Below, piece by piece: positions 4,027 to 16,278 of a stretch of 33,548 nucleotides of DNA. Location of the stretch: NCBI GenBank assembly GCA_030754995.1, contig JASLZG010000009.1, positions 1 through 33,548 of the forward strand, read 5' to 3'. The notes beneath the pieces are model-generated. The model was not told the origin of the DNA, ran no database searches, and saw nothing but the letters and a program-made list of their open reading frames with translations. The stretch comes from Lentisphaeria bacterium (GTDB lineage: Bacteria > Verrucomicrobiota > Lentisphaeria > JABSQK01 > CAJWLW01). The translations under genes and the position numbers were made by a program. The first letter of the stretch is position 1; every line of letters begins with the position of its first letter.

Positions 4027-7000
4027 TCACCGCACTTCCAGCATGAAACTCTCCGAATGGCTGTTGAACTCCGGCGCGTACATGCACTGGATGTTGGCGA
4101 TGCCGCTCTGATACCTGCCCCGGTGCGCCACCCGCGTCGAATACTCGAAGACATACGTGCCCTTCGGCAGATAGTCGATAAAGAAGTGACTCGCCGTGTC
4201 GCGGGTGCTCTGGTAATACGCCAGCCCGTCCTGGTACCTGTACTTCGACAACACGTTCACCGGTTCCGTACCGGCCCCGCGCTGGTCCTTCAAGTGCACG
4301 TACTCCATGTCGCGGTCGACGCGCAGCACCAACCGCACCACCAGCTCGTCACCGACGCCGATGACCCCCTCTACCTTGTTCAGCACCGGCCCCTTCCCGG
4401 TGTTCTCCTTGATGTACAGCGCCTTCTCCAGCGTCAGCGGCGTCGCCGTGTGCGGCGTGATCTTGCGCATGTCCTCCATGTACTGCCAGTGGATGCTGCC
4501 CCAGCTCACACCCTCGTCGATCTTGGTCAGCGTGACTTCGCCCATTGCCGGCTTGACCTCAGCCCCGCCAAAACGCTCCTCGTAGAAGCCGGTGCCGGCT
4601 TCGACGTTTTTCGGCTCGATCGCGACGCCGGCCAATGCCACCGCCACCAGCTCGTCCGAGGCCAGCAGGTCGGTGCCGCGCAGCAGCATGGCGTACACCG
4701 CATCGGCGGTGGCGCGTGTCGTCTTCCAGTCGCGCGTTTGTTTCTGCTTGAGCAGCCAGACCTTGCAGTCCTCGACCGCCTTGTCGTCTTTGGCGACTTC
4801 GTCGAAGGCCTCGATCATCATCGCCTGGGTCTCGATCGGCGCCCGGTACCACCACCAGGAATGCTCGGTGTCGCGCCAGTACATGCCCATCTCCTCCTCG
4901 TTCACAGAATGCTCGTGGATCGATCGCATGATCTTCGCCGGGGTCCCTTTGCCCGCCCCGAACCGCTGCAGGCCAACCGCCAGGTGTCCTTGCGACAGGC
5001 GCGACACGGTCAGCCACTGTTTGCGTGCCTGCCCGAGAAAGTAGTCAACGGCCTCCTTCGCATTCGCCGCAATGACCTGGTCCTCGAGAAAGAAGCTGCG
5101 CCCGTAGATGTACAAGGCGATCGCCGGGCCCAGATTGTTGTTGTCAAGACGTTTGTCCCGCTTCAACTGCTGATATCTCTGGTTGATCGAGCCATCCAGA
5201 AAGTTGAGTGCCTTCAGCGCCGGCTTGACGTCGATGCGCTTGACGCCGAGATGGCGCAGCCGACCGTAGCCCGTAGTGATGTACAACGTGATGTAATGAT
5301 TCGACGGGCCGCCGGGGAACCAGCCCCACGAACCGTCGCCGCGCTGCATTTCCTCGAGCCGGCGCTGCTGCCCGCGGCGTTCGCGGTTGAGCCGATTCCT
5401 GTCGAACAGTATGCCGAGGTTGCGCCGCGCCTCGCTCTCGCTCCCGGCTTGGCGGACCCATGGGGTTTCCTCGAGCATCACGGCCTTGAGCTCGGCGTTT
5501 TTCTCCAGCGGGCTGTCGAGCGCCTCGGTCCCTTTCCACTGGTCGAAAATCCGCCGGATCTTCGGGTCGGAACTGGCGATGTGCGAAGCCAGGGCATTGG
5601 CGTACAAACGGTTGAACACCTGCTCGGCGCAGCCGTGCGGGTACTCCATCAGGTAGGGCAGAGCCATCACTGCGTACCACGCCGGCTGTGACACCATCTG
5701 CACCGTCAGGCTCTCGTGCCGGATCGTGTCGGAACCGCCGGAGGCCAGGAGTTTTTCGAACTTGAACGTCTTCTTGCCGGCGTCGCGGACCGGCAGCGGC
5801 AGCGATTCGGTGACCATGATGCGACGCGGCAGTACCGGCAGGTAGCCTTCCTCGCCGTCCGAAAGCTTGTTGGTCGCGGCCACGGCGGTGTAGCTGAGGA
5901 ACCCCTGGCCATCGGGCACCGCGAGCGCCCAGGAATACGTCCGCGACTCCTTGGCGGGAATGTCGAACCCCTTGTCGGTCCGCTCATTTCCCAGCGCTTG
6001 ATCGGCGGACTGCGTAGTTCTTGCGTCGGCCAGGGACAGGCGGACGGTGCCCTGCTGGCGGGTCGGTGACTGGTTGATCACCTTGACCGTGAACTCGAGC
6101 CTGTCACCCTCGCGCAGGAAGCGCGGCGGATTCGGCTGCACCATCAGGTCCTTGGCGGTGACCACGCTGTCCTGCAGGAAACCGCTGCGCAGCCCGGCAT
6201 CGTGCGCCAACGCCATGAACTTCCACTTGGTCAGAGCCTCCGGCATCTCGAACTCCAGCTTGACGCGACCCTCGCCGTCACTGATCAGGTGGGGGAAGAA
6301 GAAAGCGGTTTCCTGCAGGTTCCTGCGGGCCGTTACTTTGCCCAGGTCCGGTCCCTTCGGCGCGCCGCCGGCGGCGGCGGTCGGCGGCGCCGCCGGGTCC
6401 AGGGCAACAGCTCCGTCCTTTCGAGCTGCCTTCCCCTGGGCGAGCACGGTGCCGTCAGCCATTTCCATCCCATCGGCATCCGCCGCCATCTCCATCGACG
6501 CCATCGGTGCCGGGGCACTGCTTAAGCTGCGATATTCGACGACCCCGCCCCGGCGGCCGCCATAGCTGTGATAGAAGTTCCTGGTGACATCCGGGTGAAA
6601 GCCGCGATATCTGAGGTTGCCGTTTTTCCGGTGGCTCGGCCAGCGGCCCTGCAGACGATGCCAGGAAACAAGAAGGTTCTGAAACTGCGACTGCAGGCGT
6701 GACCGGTCATGCCGGAATACGCCGATGCTTTGCGCCCAATGATGCGGCAGATAGGCATCGAGCGATTCGTCGTAGAGCCCGGCGACCATCTCGGCCACCA
6801 CCTTTTCGGCGTCCGTCCCGGTGATTATCGCAGTCCAGGTTTCCTTTTCGGCCGGCCCGAGCTTCGAAGTGAAATGCTCCCACTTCACCTGGAGTTTCTT
6901 GTTGCTCCACGGCACCGTGACCGGGCGCACTGTTATGTAGCCCCGATTCTCCCGCACCATCGTAACGCGCACCGTGAAGCCACCGCGCATCTCCTCGGTC

Positions 7001-10000
7001 ACTGCCAGTTCGATGATCTCCTGGGTGAGTTGCGGGTCGGTCCAGAAACTCCGCAGAATCTTCTTGCGATGCTCGATCTCGATGTATGCCCGGGCCCGAT
7101 CGTAGCCGCTGCCCCACAGCGCCGTGAGGCTGTCACCCGGCTCAACCTGCCAAGTCGGTGCCGTGAGCAGGAATGGAATCTTCAGGTTGCACTTGGGCGC
7201 CTGCGGATCGAGCACCTGCAACGGCTGCAGAGCAGTGACCGGCTTGCCGAAACGATCAGTCGACTCCAGTTTGGCACGGTACAGCCCGGGCTCGAGCGCC
7301 ACCGAAAGCTCCGCCCCGCCCTCGGCATCCGTCGTGAACGGCCGTTCGGCGGCAACCTCGCCGACTGGCCAGGTGTTGGGATCGGCAAGGTCCGGCTCTG
7401 CCGCCTGCCCGGCCGGCGACGGCATGCGGCGATGCCGCTGCCAGCCTTGGGGCCGGGGACGCTGGACGGTTGCCGGCGCCTGCAGCCGGAAAATCCTGAC
7501 GGTACCCTCAGCCCTCTGGCCGACGCCATCAAGCGTGCGCGTACCGATCGTCAGCACCACGGGCTTGTCCTTCTCCTGCCACTGGCCGGTGCTGAGTGTC
7601 GCCTGCAGAGTGGTGTAGCCGACGTTGACGGTGCGGCTGGCGGAGCGTGTTTCGCCGGCGGTGTCGGTGACATCGGCGTCGACCGAGAAAGTGAAGGTCG
7701 GTTCGTCGGCCGCCGGCACCGTCCGGTCCGGCGTGGCATTGAAGGTGACCTTGAACGAGCCGTCGGTCTCGGTCCGCACGATCCCGTGGAGGATCTCCTG
7801 GCCGCCGGACTGCGGCGGCATCCACCAGCGATACCAGCCCCACCACGGCGGATACCGAACCTCACGCACGACGCGGTACTGCACCTTGGCGCCATTGACC
7901 GCGGCCCCGGTGTAGCTGATGGCATGTCCCGTGATGGTGACGCCGGCATCCAGCTTCGGGGCGGTTTCCGGCGGCTCGAGGGTGACCTCGAACTTCGGCC
8001 GCTTGTACTCCTCGACCGTGACGTTGGTAATGCCGTTGGGCTGACCCTCGACGGCGATCGACATGCGGCCCATCAGCCGATCGCGCGGCGCCGTGAAGCT
8101 GCCGGAAAACGAACCGTAATCGTTGGTGCGAAAGTCGCGGCGCTCAATTTCCTTGTGATTGACGTCGCGGAAAGTGACCATGAGCTTGCGGTTGTTGATG
8201 GTGCGGTACGCGTCTTTCCCTTGGTCCGAATATATGCAGATGCCCTTGAAACGGATCGTCTGTCCCGGGCGGTAGAGCGAGCGATCGGTGAAAAACATGG
8301 TGTGTTCCTGCGGCCGGACCGTCATCTCATAGGCGCGTGCCGAAAGGTTGTTGGTCGAAACACGATCGCCCTGGTGTTTCGCCACAATGACATGCGGCTG
8401 CGGGTTGATGGCCGCTTTGAAATAGCCGTTTTTGTCGGTGCGCACATCGCCCCCCGTCCGCTGCCAATTCCGGCGAACCCGGTGCCAGAACTGGACCTGT
8501 ACACCCTCGATCGGCTCGCCGCTGCGCGCCGCCAGCACGAAACCGCCGACCCGGTTCGATCCCTGTCGCGTTCGCGTGACGATCGCCAGGTCACTGACCC
8601 AGAAGCTGCGATAGTTCACGAAATTCCTCTCCTTCTGAAAATTCGGGGTGCAACTGGAGATGACGAAATAATGACCCTTCGCCAGGTCCCCGGGCACCTC
8701 GACCTGATGTTGCCGCAACTGATAATCGTCCGTCGGCGGCAGATCCACAGACCAGGATTTAACCGGCGGCATGCCGATCAGTTCCTGCTGTTGCCGGCGC
8801 GTCGCCAACTGATCGAGCGACCAGCTCCGTGAACTGAGCAGCTTGTTCCAGTCGTACGGCACGACGCGAAACCAGATCTTGTCGATGTTCTTGTAGCTGA
8901 CACTGACTTTCGGCCATGGCTCGTTCCACACCTGCTCGACCATCAGGTCGACCTGCTTCGCTTCGATGGTTTGGACCAGGTTGTGGCAGGAATTGCCGCC
9001 CGGGGTCTCCGGGTGTGCCCTGGCGCCGCGCGTCGCCAGCCGGTGGGCACCGGCGAAATCGCTGTCGTTCTGCAGGATCATCGCCCAGTGATGCAGCGCC
9101 CGGGCCGAGATGCGGTGGTCGGCCCACTGATCGACGAAGCGCTCGAGCGCGGCGATGTAGCGCTCTTTTTTGTCGGCGCCGTAGGCCTGGTTGTAGCCGT
9201 AGACCAGGCGGCCGAGGTCGGCATCGATGCGGGCGTCCGGGTTGGCGTCGCTCTTGTGGAAGCGCAGCACCTCCTGGTAGACCTGCAATGCCCTGACCTT
9301 GGTCGAGGTGTCGTCGGTGGTCTCGATCTGCCAGGCGAGGAAGTCGTCGAGCTTGTCGAAGACCGGGGTGTCGGCGGCGAGGTCGAAGGCGTCCTGGGCG
9401 CGGTTTCCCGCCTGCTCGCCGGCACTGTAAAAACCCAGGGCCTCAAAGGCCAGGAAATCGTAGAGGGTCGGGCGGAAGCTGTCCGGTGCATTGCCGGCGG
9501 TGAGCAGTTCCGTATAATCGGCGATCGGCATCTTCTGCAGGGTTTCGGCGGCCGCCAGGGCGGTTGAGAAATGCTTGTCGATCTCGGCCAGGATCGTTGC
9601 CAGGTCCCAGCTCATGATGTCGTTGCCGGCGGCTTCGCCGGTCTGCGTGCGCTGCATGAAGCGCCAGCGGTTCTGCTGGAAAAAGTGCCAGTACCAGTGG
9701 GCCAGAATAGTCTGGAGAATCGGCTTGACCTCGTCCGGCGCGTCTTCGATTTCGGCTTGGAGGTTGGCGATCTTCTCTTCCGCCTTGCCGCCCTGGATCT
9801 CGGTGTGGTGGCGGATCTTCTTGGTTATCGCCTTGACCGCTTCGGCATAGGCTTTGTCGGCCAGGGCACCTTCGACGATCGGTTCGAGCAGTTCCATGGC
9901 GGTTTTTGGCAGGCCGTTGGCTTCGGCTTCGGCGACGTCCTTCCAGGCCGCCGTGCGGTCGGCGGCAAAGGCGCAGTGGACGAGCAGGAACAGGGGTATG

Positions 10001-10020
10001 AAATAACGAATCATTGACAC
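4027..10020 (-). CDS. Alpha-2-macroglobulin family protein with CAEQ thioester
   Basis: A 1997-residue exported protein, longer than the roughly 1650-residue E. coli YfhM type. A signal peptide (about residues 1-20) ends 'AFA' with no good lipobox. An alpha-helical N-terminal region is followed by a carboxypeptidase-regulatory-like module (about 490-540), the macroglobulin MG2 motif 'DRSLYRPGQTI' (near 580), a Met/Ala/Gly-rich low-complexity stretch (about 1163-1217) that may be the exposed protease bait, 'NLQETAFFFP' (near 1237), the thioester-forming 'GCAEQ' (Cys1464, Gln1467) in an alpha/alpha domain, and a receptor-binding-like end. Such proteins trap proteases at the cell envelope. No PBP1C gene is adjacent, unlike the common bacterial pairing. 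GGAGG lies 5 bases before the GTG at 10020 and 11 before an ATG at 10014; either could start translation. Confidence 0.93.
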   Translation of the reverse strand: MSMIRYFIPLFLLVHCAFAADRTAAWKDVAEAEANGLPKTAMELLEPIVEGALADKAYAEAVKAITKKIRHHTEIQGGKAEEKIANLQAEIEDAPDEVKPILQTILAHWYWHFFQQNRWRFMQRTQTGEAAGNDIMSWDLATILAEIDKHFSTALAAAETLQKMPIADYTELLTAGNAPDSFRPTLYDFLAFEALGFYSAGEQAGNRAQDAFDLAADTPVFDKLDDFLAWQIETTDDTSTKVRALQVYQEVLRFHKSDANPDARIDADLGRLVYGYNQAYGADKKERYIAALERFVDQWADHRISARALHHWAMILQNDSDFAGAHRLATRGARAHPETPGGNSCHNLVQTIEAKQVDLMVEQVWNEPWPKVSVSYKNIDKIWFRVVPYDWNKLLSSRSWSLDQLATRRQQQELIGMPPVKSWSVDLPPTDDYQLRQHQVEVPGDLAKGHYFVISSCTPNFQKERNFVNYRSFWVSDLAIVTRTRQGSNRVGGFVLAARSGEPIEGVQVQFWHRVRRNWQRTGGDVRTDKNGYFKAAINPQPHVIVAKHQGDRVSTNNLSARAYEMTVRPQEHTMFFTDRSLYRPGQTIRFKGICIYSDQGKDAYRTINNRKLMVTFRDVNHKEIERRDFRTNDYGSFSGSFTAPRDRLMGRMSIAVEGQPNGITNVTVEEYKRPKFEVTLEPPETAPKLDAGVTITGHAISYTGAAVNGAKVQYRVVREVRYPPWWGWYRWWMPPQSGGQEILHGIVRTETDGSFKVTFNATPDRTVPAADEPTFTFSVDADVTDTAGETRSASRTVNVGYTTLQATLSTGQWQEKDKPVVLTIGTRTLDGVGQRAEGTVRIFRLQAPATVQRPRPQGWQRHRRMPSPAGQAAEPDLADPNTWPVGEVAAERPFTTDAEGGAELSVALEPGLYRAKLESTDRFGKPVTALQPLQVLDPQAPKCNLKIPFLLTAPTWQVEPGDSLTALWGSGYDRARAYIEIEHRKKILRSFWTDPQLTQEIIELAVTEEMRGGFTVRVTMVRENRGYITVRPVTVPWSNKKLQVKWEHFTSKLGPAEKETWTAIITGTDAEKVVAEMVAGLYDESLDAYLPHHWAQSIGVFRHDRSRLQSQFQNLLVSWHRLQGRWPSHRKNGNLRYRGFHPDVTRNFYHSYGGRRGGVVEYRSLSSAPAPMASMEMAADADGMEMADGTVLAQGKAARKDGAVALDPAAPPTAAAGGAPKGPDLGKVTARRNLQETAFFFPHLISDGEGRVKLEFEMPEALTKWKFMALAHDAGLRSGFLQDSVVTAKDLMVQPNPPRFLREGDRLEFTVKVINQSPTRQQGTVRLSLADARTTQSADQALGNERTDKGFDIPAKESRTYSWALAVPDGQGFLSYTAVAATNKLSDGEEGYLPVLPRRIMVTESLPLPVRDAGKKTFKFEKLLASGGSDTIRHESLTVQMVSQPAWYAVMALPYLMEYPHGCAEQVFNRLYANALASHIASSDPKIRRIFDQWKGTEALDSPLEKNAELKAVMLEETPWVRQAGSESEARRNLGILFDRNRLNRERRGQQRRLEEMQRGDGSWGWFPGGPSNHYITLYITTGYGRLRHLGVKRIDVKPALKALNFLDGSINQRYQQLKRDKRLDNNNLGPAIALYIYGRSFFLEDQVIAANAKEAVDYFLGQARKQWLTVSRLSQGHLAVGLQRFGAGKGTPAKIMRSIHEHSVNEEEMGMYWRDTEHSWWWYRAPIETQAMMIEAFDEVAKDDKAVEDCKVWLLKQKQTRDWKTTRATADAVYAMLLRGTDLLASDELVAVALAGVAIEPKNVEAGTGFYEERFGGAEVKPAMGEVTLTKIDEGVSWGSIHWQYMEDMRKITPHTATPLTLEKALYIKENTGKGPVLNKVEGVIGVGDELVVRLVLRVDRDMEYVHLKDQRGAGTEPVNVLSKYRYQDGLAYYQSTRDTASHFFIDYLPKGTYVFEYSTRVAHRGRYQSGIANIQCMYAPEFNSHSESFMLEVR

Positions 10021-11507: not shown

Positions 11508-13532
11508 ATGATGTCCGAAAATGATCCTTCCGGGTCGAGTCGACACGCCATGCTTAACAAGCAGGACGGCTGGTTCAGGTACTGCCGCCCTTACCTGGAG
11601 GAGTTGAATCCCAGGGATGACCTCGACCTGGCCACTTACGTGGGCGACATGGTCGCGCGGGCCAAGGGGTTCAAGGCCGATACCCTGGTGATGATGGCGG
11701 ACGACGGCGGTTATCCGCTCTTCCCGAGCGCCCTGGCCCCGATCAACTCCCATATCCACGGTCAGGACCTGTTGGGGATGATCGAACGGGAATGCCGTCA
11801 GGCGGAACTTCGGTTCGGCCTTGGTTTCCTGGGCGTGCACACAAACTCGCATATCGCGGCCACGCGTCCGGAATGGGCAATGCGCGACGAGAACGGCCAG
11901 ACCTACCCGTTCTTCCACACACACCTGATCTGCCTGAACTCGCCCTACACCCAGTACTACACAGACCTCATCGGGGAGGCGTTGGCACGGTACCCGGTCG
12001 ACTACCTCTACGTCGAGGGCGAGTATTTCTACATACAGGGCTGTCACTGTGCCTCCTGCAACGAGAAGTTCAAAACGATTTTCGGGAAGGATTTCAGCCA
12101 AGCCGAGCCGGCGGAGCTCCACACATTCCTGAACGACAGCGTGACTGCTTTCCAGGCTGCCGTGAAGGCGGTCGCCGATGCCGTGTCGCCGGAGACCGTG
12201 GTAGTCGGCACATCCTACCACTCGATGGACTGCTGCGACCTGGCCGCCTTCCCGAAATACACGGACATGGTGTCCATCGAGAATCAATGGGGGATCGGCC
12301 GGGCCCGCCCCTCCCTGCACCAGGTGGGCCTGGACATACTGCACCATCGGGCGATGTCCCGGAAACCGGTGTCCGGGACATGGTGGGCGAGTCACAATGT
12401 GGACTTGAACTACCACCAACGTTCCCCGACACACGCCAAGCTCACTTTCATGCAGACCCTGGCATACGGCGCGACGGTGCAACCCCACATTCAGACGGTG
12501 TTCGAGTTCGAGCCATCCCTGATACCGACGCTGACCGACCTCTTCTCCTGCGTTGAGCGCCTGCGCGACTACCTGCTGGACGCCGAGTTGCTGCCGTACA
12601 TCGCCATCGTGGACAGTCCGCAGGCGGCGGGCTACTGCACCGCGCTGATCGAACACCACCTGCCGTTCGACCTGATCGCGCCCGGGGAACTGGACCGGCA
12701 GCGGCTGGACGCCTATTGCGCCGTAATCGTCGGCAACGCGCGCACCCTGAGCGGGCAGGCGGTGAAGAATCTCGCTGCCTACATCGAGGCGGGAGGCGGC
12801 CTGGTGTGTGCGGGCCAGGTCAGTGCGGAGCTGGCGGCGCTGATCGGGCTGGAACTGGACGGCGAGATCGACAGCGGCCGCGACGAGCTGCCGCTCTACT
12901 ACCGATTCGAAACGGCAGCCGAGCCCTGGGGCGCCTGGGGCGGAAGGCTCCTGTCGTTCGGCTTTCCCTGCGCCCGGGTGCGGCCGTCCGCGGACTTTCG
13001 CGTCGAGGCCCAGATCATCGGCCTGGACACGGACAGGATGCACGAGGACCACATGGGCATCAAGCCGTATCCCGGCTCCCCGCAGGGCCCGATGGTGCTC
13101 ACCCGCCGTGTCGCCGATGGCCGGGTGCTCTATCTTGCCGGCGACTTGGCCGACAGCGCCGTGCCTGGAAAGACCGCCGATGCGGATGTGCTGGAGGTGT
13201 TGGCCAAGGCGGTGCTCTGGGCCGCCGCCGAGCCGCCGCCGATCACCACCAGCGCGCCGCCGTCGGTCGAGCTGGTGACGCACGTGAAACAGGACCGGAT
13301 GGCGATCTTTGTCCTCAACCAGACCATGAACCAGGTCGAGAACAACGACGTGATACGCTATGTCGTGCCCCTGCCGGACCAGGAGATCCGGGTGCGGGTG
13401 AAGGCACCGGTGCACACGGTGACGGCGATCAGCGGCCAGCCGGTTCGCCACGAAGTCGACGACGGCTGGCTGAGCGTTCGCGTGCCGAGGATCGACGAGT
13501 ACGAAGTGCTGCTGGTCGACCACACGGCATAG
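11508..13532 (+). CDS. GHL6-like TIM-barrel glycoside hydrolase with trimerisation-like domain
   Basis: A 674-residue protein without a signal peptide. Residues up to about 330 resemble the hypothetical glycosyl hydrolase 6 barrel, with 'PVDYLYVEGEYF' (a candidate catalytic acid strand) and a Cys pair 'CHCASC' that may bind metal. Residues about 360-560 resemble the beta-galactosidase trimerisation (class-I glutamine amidotransferase-like) domain, with 'YCAVIVGNARTLSG' and 'GGGLVCAG'. A beta-rich C-terminal domain follows. AAAGGAG lies 4 bases before the ATG at 11508 and 7 before a second ATG at 11511, which may be preferred. It probably acts on an oligosaccharide or glycoside feeding the neighbouring dehydratase. 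The substrate is not predictable, and catalysis is inferred from fold resemblance. Confidence 0.72.
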   Translation: MMSENDPSGSSRHAMLNKQDGWFRYCRPYLEELNPRDDLDLATYVGDMVARAKGFKADTLVMMADDGGYPLFPSALAPINSHIHGQDLLGMIERECRQAELRFGLGFLGVHTNSHIAATRPEWAMRDENGQTYPFFHTHLICLNSPYTQYYTDLIGEALARYPVDYLYVEGEYFYIQGCHCASCNEKFKTIFGKDFSQAEPAELHTFLNDSVTAFQAAVKAVADAVSPETVVVGTSYHSMDCCDLAAFPKYTDMVSIENQWGIGRARPSLHQVGLDILHHRAMSRKPVSGTWWASHNVDLNYHQRSPTHAKLTFMQTLAYGATVQPHIQTVFEFEPSLIPTLTDLFSCVERLRDYLLDAELLPYIAIVDSPQAAGYCTALIEHHLPFDLIAPGELDRQRLDAYCAVIVGNARTLSGQAVKNLAAYIEAGGGLVCAGQVSAELAALIGLELDGEIDSGRDELPLYYRFETAAEPWGAWGGRLLSFGFPCARVRPSADFRVEAQIIGLDTDRMHEDHMGIKPYPGSPQGPMVLTRRVADGRVLYLAGDLADSAVPGKTADADVLEVLAKAVLWAAAEPPPITTSAPPSVELVTHVKQDRMAIFVLNQTMNQVENNDVIRYVVPLPDQEIRVRVKAPVHTVTAISGQPVRHEVDDGWLSVRVPRIDEYEVLLVDHTA

Positions 13533-13671: not shown

Positions 13672-15666
13672 ATGCCAGACGATACACAGGATCTGCTCAA
13701 TGACCGTGTGTTGCGGCGCTCGAGACACCTCGAGTCGCGCGATGTGCCCGATGGCGTACAGCTGTTGAAGCAGACGCGGCTCGCCAACTACCTGGCACTC
13801 TCAGAGAAGCAGCAGGAGTTGTTTTCCGAGTTTGACGGTGAGCGCAACGTCCAGCAGATCCTGCACGAGCTTCTACGGAAACAGGAGCGGCCGAATCTGC
13901 GCAGCTTCTATGACTTCGTGGTGACTGCCACCGAGCGCGGCTTCCTGGTCCCCGCCGGCGACGAAGAAACACAGGATGCCGAATCGGCGCCCCTGCGGAC
14001 GTTGTCACTGCCGTTCGGCTGGGGCTTTGCAGCGGCGGTCATCCTCAGCGGCATCATGATTGCCGGGGGCATCTGCTTCATTAGCCAGGTCAGCCATACG
14101 ATCCCGTTGACTGCCGTGGACTGGCTTCTGGCACTGATCGTGATCAGTGTGGGCATGAGCCTTTCCGGCATACTTTCCGGCTTCGTATTGAAAGGATTTG
14201 CCCGGGTTGTTTATGGGCCGTCGCTCAACCTGAAACGGGTTATCCCGTACATCGCCGTGGATACCCGTGACGGCTTTATGGGTGGCCGAAAATGCGAAAT
14301 CGCGACCGCCCTGCAGGCTGGCGCCACACCGTTTTTGATCATCGTTGCCGGTGCCGTGCTTGACAACGGTGTTGTCGTATTCGCCGCGGTCCTCACGGCG
14401 TTCATTCTTCTCTGCCCGGTGGGCGCCACGCCCGGCGCCGATCTCATTCATGCGATTTTCCGCAAGCAGTATCGCTTGCGGCGCTTGTCGGCGCGCTTTC
14501 TCGGGCGGCGACTGATCGTGCAGTTGCGGCGCTTTGTCCCGGAGTTCTTTTCCCGGAAGAAAGACAAGGGCGAAGAAAACTACATGTTCGTATTCGTCAC
14601 CTGCACACTCATCTGGCTGGGCACGGCGCTGCAGTTCGGCGGTGACATCATTCGCAACAGCGGCAGTGTGCTGGTATGGGACCTGGAGCATGCGCCGGAG
14701 TTGTCACAGCGGCTGTTCGCCGGAGTATCCCTGGCAATCACCTTTATTCTCATCGCGGGGCCGCTGTTGTACCAGGTTTGGGTGGTTCTGCAGAATCTTT
14801 TTCAACTGCTGCGGCCACGGCTGTTTTCGACGGAGCGTCGCATCGCGAAGCGTCACCGGGCGCCAGAGTCGGAAGCGACGGTGGAGGAGGTGTTGTTGTA
14901 CCTCAAGGACAGCCTGTTGTTCGCCCAGCTTCCAGAGGAAGTCCTGAAAGCCGTGGCGGCCGCGATGACCCCGCTGGCGGTCGCGCCGGGGACGGAGGTG
15001 ATCCACCAGGGTGAATCCGGGCAGGCGCTGTACATGATCACCACCGGCCGGGCCCGCATTGAGCGCGAAGATGAGTTCGGGGAGAGTCGTGTTGTCGCCG
15101 CCATCGGGCCGGGCGATGTCTTCGGAGAGATCGCACTGATCGACAATATTCCCAGGACCAGCACGGTGGTCAGCAACACTCCTTTGACCCTGCTGCAGCT
15201 CGAACGCGCCGATTTCGAGCGCCTGGTCCTCGATCAACTTGGCGCCGAGACCGTTCGCACAACCATCCAGGTTTGCGGGTTTCTGCGCAAATGCGACATG
15301 TTCTCCGGCTGGCATAACCAGGCATTGATGTCGATCGCCCTGAAATTTAAGTTCCGCGACGTCGCCAACGACGAAAAGGTGATTGACGAGGACAGGGAGA
15401 ATGATCGGTTCTTTATGATCTACGAAGGTCAATTTCAGGTGAGTCGTGGCGGCAAGCCGATCGTCGCCCTCGGCGCTGGTGACTACTTCGGGGAGATCAG
15501 CCTGCTGCGCAATACGCCGGCGATCTCGAGCGTCGTGGCAGTTGAACCGTCACGGTGCCTGGTCCTGACGCGCGACGAGTTTCTCAACTTCGTCAGCCAC
15601 GATTTTCTCACCGGTTATGCAATCGAAGGGGAATTGGAACAACGCATGTCAGAGGCCGGCGTCTAA
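13672..15666 (+). CDS. PqqD-like / M50-like membrane / double cyclic-nucleotide-binding-domain protein
   Basis: A 664-residue inner-membrane protein. Residues about 20-95 look like a PqqD-type winged-helix module. Residues about 115-390 contain five or so membrane helices whose layout resembles M50/site-2-protease-like proteins, but no HExxH zinc motif is visible, so a peptidase role is not supported. Two cyclic-nucleotide-binding folds follow: CNBD1 has 'FGEIAL' (484-489) with the phosphate-binding Arg495; CNBD2 has 'FGEISL' (606-611) but Ala617 where the arginine should be, so it may not bind nucleotide. It is probably a membrane switch responding to a cyclic nucleotide. A TTGACA at 13587-13592 lies upstream without a convincing -10. 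The next gene is an orphan pseudopilin-like protein. Confidence 0.7.
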   Translation: MPDDTQDLLNDRVLRRSRHLESRDVPDGVQLLKQTRLANYLALSEKQQELFSEFDGERNVQQILHELLRKQERPNLRSFYDFVVTATERGFLVPAGDEETQDAESAPLRTLSLPFGWGFAAAVILSGIMIAGGICFISQVSHTIPLTAVDWLLALIVISVGMSLSGILSGFVLKGFARVVYGPSLNLKRVIPYIAVDTRDGFMGGRKCEIATALQAGATPFLIIVAGAVLDNGVVVFAAVLTAFILLCPVGATPGADLIHAIFRKQYRLRRLSARFLGRRLIVQLRRFVPEFFSRKKDKGEENYMFVFVTCTLIWLGTALQFGGDIIRNSGSVLVWDLEHAPELSQRLFAGVSLAITFILIAGPLLYQVWVVLQNLFQLLRPRLFSTERRIAKRHRAPESEATVEEVLLYLKDSLLFAQLPEEVLKAVAAAMTPLAVAPGTEVIHQGESGQALYMITTGRARIEREDEFGESRVVAAIGPGDVFGEIALIDNIPRTSTVVSNTPLTLLQLERADFERLVLDQLGAETVRTTIQVCGFLRKCDMFSGWHNQALMSIALKFKFRDVANDEKVIDEDRENDRFFMIYEGQFQVSRGGKPIVALGAGDYFGEISLLRNTPAISSVVAVEPSRCLVLTRDEFLNFVSHDFLTGYAIEGELEQRMSEAGV

Positions 15667-15765: not shown

Positions 15766-16278
15766 ATGCTGATCAAACTGATAATGCTGTCCGCCCTCGG
15801 CTACCTGGGGTATGCGAACCGTTCCGTGATAGAGAACGCGCGATACACCTTCGACAAGATCAGGGGTGAGCAAATCACGTCGATTGAGATGAAGACAATT
15901 CGCAGAATCATCGTTTATTACCACACCGAGCATGAAACGCTGCCGAACCCGGCGAGCTTTACAAAGTTTCTCGAGGAGAACACCCGCGAAATGGCCGGCA
16001 AAGACACCAGGAAGAACGGTGTTGACATATGGGGTACGCCGTACGTCCTCGAGATCGAGAAAAAGGACTTCACTGTTTGCTCCGCCGGCGCCGATCAGCA
16101 ATGGAACACCGACGACGATATTCGCCTGGTCCAGGCAATAGATGGGGTGCGGAGTGTTGAACAAAGCCCGGAGAAAAAAGAGCGTCGCAAAACCGGTGAA
16201 CGCTCCAAAAAGAAAACCAAGGTGCGAAAGCTCTTGGGCACCGAGTGGAAACGCGGCAAGATCGGGTTTGATCGATAA
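15766..16278 (+). CDS. GspG-like pseudopilin C-terminal domain protein
   Basis: A 170-residue protein with one N-terminal hydrophobic segment (about 1-17) and a middle helix. Its region 'VDIWGTPYVLEI' followed by 'CSAGADQQWNTDDDI' matches the calcium-loop end of type II secretion major pseudopilins (DPWGNPY, then SxGxDGxxGTxDDI). The usual prepilin peptidase site (G-F-T-L-x-E) is absent, so it may be a membrane-tethered pseudopilin fold rather than a processed pilin. The last 35 residues are very basic (KKERRKTGERSKKK). No other secretion genes are in the window. It starts 99 bases after the CNBD protein and may share its transcript. The domain resemblance is good; the role is unknown. Confidence 0.7.
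   Translation: MLIKLIMLSALGYLGYANRSVIENARYTFDKIRGEQITSIEMKTIRRIIVYYHTEHETLPNPASFTKFLEENTREMAGKDTRKNGVDIWGTPYVLEIEKKDFTVCSAGADQQWNTDDDIRLVQAIDGVRSVEQSPEKKERRKTGERSKKKTKVRKLLGTEWKRGKIGFDR

Follow-up and report, generated by a model that had tools for sequence, protein, structure and literature searches.

A site-2 protease homologue without zinc ligands, with an RRE-like head, twin cyclic nucleotide-binding domains and a clade-specific partner gene in Verrucomicrobiota

Introduction

What can a membrane protein built like a site-2 protease do when its zinc motif is gone? The question is raised by a 664-aa protein encoded at 13672..15666 (+) in a Lentisphaeria contig, of which 33,548 nt, called the window here, were analysed. 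A sequence-only reading had seen in it a PqqD-like part, an M50-like membrane part without HExxH and two cyclic nucleotide-binding domains (CNBDs). It had also suggested that the first CNBD senses and the second is structural.

Site-2 pseudoproteases are already known in plants. The chloroplast EGY3 of Arabidopsis is reported to stabilise other proteins (PMC10978774). A search of the open-access literature turned up no account of a bacterial family of such pseudoproteases. It found no paper on the combination of PqqD, M50 and CNBD either, which, being confined to open-access sources, is weak evidence of absence.

Results

Layout and N-terminal head

The ORF opens with ATG at 13672, closes with a stop at 15664-15666 and shows coding-type GC by codon position. 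It has full-length relatives, and AF2 modelled the whole protein with a mean pLDDT of 87.9 and a pTM of 0.77, and aa 1-401 with 89.4 and 0.85. The layout is an N-terminal PqqD/RRE fold, a zinc-less M50-like membrane core and two CNBDs. Pfam recognises two cNMP-binding stretches only (E 1.5e-37), and neither Pfam nor NCBIfam gave a useful match in the N-terminal and membrane parts. PF05402 (PqqD) and PF02163 (M50) matched neither the window protein nor its four nearest relatives, and the PF05402 matches in its own genome fall elsewhere. A plasmid collection returned similarity at the CNBD level only, and the viral contigs searched held no relative.

Where Pfam is silent, profile and model comparisons speak for the first two parts as the sequence-only reading had named them. 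The reference was a set of ten intact PqqD-M50 proteins of the same phylum, each with HExxH and a PF02163 match (10/10). The N-terminal domain (aa 10-96; 13699..13959, +) aligned with their PqqD part in hhalign at P 5e-5. With the aa 1-401 model, Foldseek placed RREs at the N-terminus (TbiB1, TigE and TfuB1, prob 0.96-1.00), TbiB1 with TMt 0.65-0.67, rmsd about 3 A and prob 0.99-1.00. The N-terminus is thus a winged-helix RRE fold as modelled, with putative peptide binding.

The RRE fold, found with prob 1.00, and the phylum's intact PqqD-M50 relatives could also fit a role in exporting or maturing a RiPP, in which the head would bind a leader peptide. We regard this as very improbable, since the loci of the relatives show no conserved modification enzyme, exporter or precursor. 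The earlier remark that no peptide-modification genes lie nearby fits this picture, although it overlooked the conserved next gene described below.

Membrane core

The core comprises helices within aa 119-384 (14026..14823, +). Compared directly with the intact PqqD-M50 set, the family gave a weak but specific hhalign match (P 0.002). Its local score was 29.7, whereas the highest among 30 block-shuffled decoys was 18.0 and the reversed profile reached 16.5. Seven paralogues of about 1,030 aa with the same layout, one of them from the same genome, served as a bridge. They matched the intact set with Prob 99.3, E 1.2e-20 and score 163, and the window family with Prob 98.6, E 7e-16 and score 126, while reversed decoys scored 16-17. 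The membrane part alone gave E 1.7e-15 and 1.1e-10, respectively, with reversed decoys at 0.3-0.5. The bridging paralogues themselves lack HExxH in the core, several having by eye REL.., RELLR or KEVTR.

Structure comparison, clear at the head, was faint at the core. Foldseek with the aa 1-401 model matched the M. jannaschii protease MjS2P (3b4r) weakly (prob 0.51, TMt 0.42, E 0.84), and its first match in a viral library was a phage M50 peptidase (prob 0.75). The Foldseek E-values for head and core, 0.008 at best, are not significant alone, but the matches point the same way as the profiles. Run against PDB sequences, the core profile returned only chance-looking matches (designed beta-trefoils, PsaK). 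The profile alignments indicate that the core scaffold is homologous with the M50/site-2 proteases and that all three zinc ligands have been replaced.

The 664-aa protein has no HExxH, as had been noted from its sequence. In the place of the motif stands SGILS (aa 165-169; 14164..14178, +), with small residues at both zinc-His positions. Among 36 aligned relatives, column 165 is G, A or S in all 36 and column 169 is A, S, G, E, T or P, so a zinc His occurs at either column in 0/36. The third ligand, the Asp of the LDG/FDG motif, is replaced by Pro254 (14431..14433, +), in a column of P, A, R, I, V, L or W with Asp in 0/36. The motif register comes from the hhalign alignment and could shift by one residue, yet no His-based HExxH is found anywhere in the helix. 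Homologues with an intact zinc motif in an aligned position, which the sequence-only reading had allowed for, were thus not seen among the 36.

Three relatives contain HELVH or HELPH, which we considered as a displaced zinc motif. It was rejected because it sits in a P-x-x-x-x-L-x-H-A stretch aligned to FDGYYxL of the intact M50 proteins.

In the AF2 model, the former HExxH helix is followed by a predicted beta-hairpin (aa 181-197; 14212..14262, +). It takes the place of the membrane-reentrant loop of site-2 proteases, which in RseP binds substrate transmembrane segments, type II proteins being cleaved there (PMC4597795).

Other core residues are strongly kept, namely D200 and P249 in 36/36, D197 in 30/36 and R206 in 27/36. 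D[TAG]RD[AG]F[ML][GA]G counts among the best-conserved parts of the core. The core might accordingly still be active through a new, non-zinc site made of D197-x-x-D200 and R206, joined by H260 in most of the partner-bearing clade. We find this quite improbable, because the counterpart of D197 and D200 in the intact M50 proteins is DxTD(S)W, which makes scaffold residues the simpler reading. The intact PqqD-M50 metalloproteases have the same order of a PqqD/RRE-like domain and then an M50 core, and the family shares with them the NP-motif Pro and the D-x-x-D that follows the hairpin. It differs from them in having lost HExxH and the FDG Asp and in ending with two CNBDs.

Twin CNBDs

Both CNBDs belong to PF00027, and the nearest to the pair by sequence and fold are the tandem CNBDs of PKA/PKG regulatory domains. 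CNBD1 (14935..15240, +) carries the phosphate-binding cassette FGEIALIDNIPRTS with Arg495, and CNBD2 (15304..15600, +) the cassette FGEISLLRNTPAIS with Ala617. The earlier assignment of the Arg to the first domain only, with its numbering, is correct.

Cassette residues were counted by alignment column, as a pattern search missed the cassettes starting with Cys. The Arg of CNBD1 is kept in 25/36 relatives and missing from 11/36, and is present in every partner-clade member that possesses CNBD1. In CNBD2, the Gly-Glu pair (G607/E608) is invariant (36/36) and the Arg position holds A, S, P or T in 36/36. One partner-bearing member (L047) has a single CNBD, the second.

That CNBD1 is the sole sensor of cAMP or cGMP and CNBD2 purely structural would agree with the distribution of the Arg, including its constancy in the partner clade and its absence from CNBD2 throughout. 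We nevertheless find it rather doubtful. CNBD2 is the more invariant domain at its Gly-Glu, CNBD1 can be lost while CNBD2 and the partner stay, and the Arg-less PKA regulatory subunits of kinetoplastids have nanomolar affinity for nucleosides (PMC6440977, PMC10959531). The proposed split between sensor and structural domain is therefore not secured, and the reverse division of labour is at least possible. The same genome has five class III cyclase matches, so a cyclic nucleotide as a ligand is plausible.

Partner gene

The next gene (15766..16278, +) encodes a 170-aa leaderless, GspG-like membrane protein with an N-terminal hydrophobic stretch, predicted to be single-pass from hydropathy. It is the next gene in 18/18 loci of one clade that have enough downstream DNA for the test. 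Its overlap with the pseudoprotease gene is exactly 4 nt in 16/18; in the window, 99 nt separate the stop from the start of the partner gene. The partner-bearing members form a single clade with support 100/100, in which L035 is counted though its contig ends before a partner could show. In the inspected loci of a more distant branch there is neither a partner nor a common neighbour.

The partner is the only widely conserved neighbour. Upstream in the window, a GHL6/beta-galactosidase-like hydrolase (11508-13532, +) is not a conserved neighbour, and farther off lies a 1,997-aa bacterial alpha-2-macroglobulin-type protein (4027-10020, -).

Within the class, the pseudoprotease and the partner are co-distributed. 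Strong partner matches occur in exactly 4/198 class genomes, which are those with full-length family members; these matches largely built the profile and score high by construction, so it is the absence elsewhere that informs. Weak matches elsewhere in the 198 genomes were two for the partner (46 and 39 bits) and one for the family (21 bits). One genome has two tandem pairs of pseudoprotease and partner.

The partner profile matches GspG structures at E 1.5e-5. The T2SSG Pfam gives 34.4 bits in one relative and 20.3 bits in the window copy, just under the cut-off of 21. The partner shares the soluble domain and the acidic SxGxD...TxD loop with the major pseudopilin GspG (29jd, 3g20). Both likenesses would suit a factor that assembles or anchors a divergent machine of the pilus or type II secretion kind, with the partner as a minor pseudopilin-like subunit and the core as no more than a nucleotide-gated membrane platform.

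We judge such a machine unlikely. Unlike GspG, the partner has no prepilin leader, the peptidase motif G-[FMLIYA]-[ST]-[LIV]-x-E being found in 0/18 partners, with the upstream frame also checked in the window. Secretion or pilus genes are not conserved around the relatives. Moreover, some partners (in L032, L036, L039 and others) have a long C-terminal extension that resembles Sel1-type repeats by eye.

Family and selection

Relatives were found at about 40 loci, nearly all in Verrucomicrobiota. Full-length relatives share 36-41% identity and come from MAGs mostly titled Lentisphaerae, Kiritimatiellota or Verrucomicrobia, and the more distant branch comes from other families within the phylum. 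Pairs of close relatives have a dN/dS of 0.06-0.19, which indicates purifying selection, so the gene family is not decaying. The partner gene is likewise under low dN/dS. This is an old, selected pseudoprotease family of several Verrucomicrobiota lineages.

Four records (L029, L034, L038 and L040) are titled Klebsiella pneumoniae, Akkermansia muciniphila or Proteobacteria, at odds with tree and similarity, and look like mislabelled MAGs. The oddly titled records included in the tree fall within the clade of the full-length relatives.

The window's genome holds further relatives. On contig C18 (L066:9948-13046), a 1,032-aa paralogue, the one that served in the bridging set, has a PqqD-like head, an M50-like core without HExxH and two CNBDs. 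Several genomes in the class carry relatives of this paralogue; in L023, one lies about 4 kb away from the tandem pairs. Contig C519 (L106:779-2938) encodes a PqqD-M50 protein that is intact, with HEFGH, so active-type and dead relatives coexist in this genome.

Discussion

The best single account, which we infer at about an even chance, is a nucleotide-gated pseudo-site-2 protease that binds the transmembrane segment of its partner uncut. To take the partner's single N-terminal transmembrane segment, with no cleavage, the core would use the hairpin together with the emptied groove of the former active site. The cytosolic CNBDs would bind ligands, a cyclic nucleotide in CNBD1 and, in CNBD2, possibly a different nucleotide or a nucleoside. 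Binding may then act as a switch on holding, stabilising or releasing the partner. The RRE-like head would bind a cytosolic peptide segment, perhaps the N-terminus of the partner. The zinc positions carry the same small residues in the distant branch, in whose inspected loci no partner was seen, so the groove may instead serve intramolecular or dimer packing.

A more specific form of this account is a previously undescribed signalling module. In it the pseudoprotease would be the nucleotide-gated receptor of one dedicated, single-pass pilin-like client, and CNBD2 would recognise a ligand other than cAMP or cGMP, e.g. a nucleoside. We advance this form tentatively.

EGY3 is also a site-2 protease homologue that is functional without HExxH; it is eukaryotic, and the available part of its description mentions no RRE, CNBD or linked single-pass partner (PMC10978774). 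The group III site-2 proteases SpoIVFB and MjS2P likewise join the core to a C-terminal cytosolic domain of a small-molecule-binding type, but they are active zinc proteases with CBS instead of CNBD and have no RRE (PMC11486902).

The kinetoplastid PKA regulatory subunits (6flo, 6hyq) have tandem CNBDs with small neutral residues for the cassette Arg, like CNBD2 here. They differ in being soluble kinase subunits and in lacking the Arg in both CNBDs. Their cassette Ala is changed to Glu, whereas the same position is Ser or Gly in CNBD2.

With these subunits as a precedent, CNBD2, which lacks the Arg but is invariant otherwise, is a candidate bacterial CNBD for a ligand that is not a cyclic nucleotide. 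Because one clade carries a candidate client gene, it can now be tested directly in bacteria whether dead intramembrane proteases hold clients that they leave uncut.
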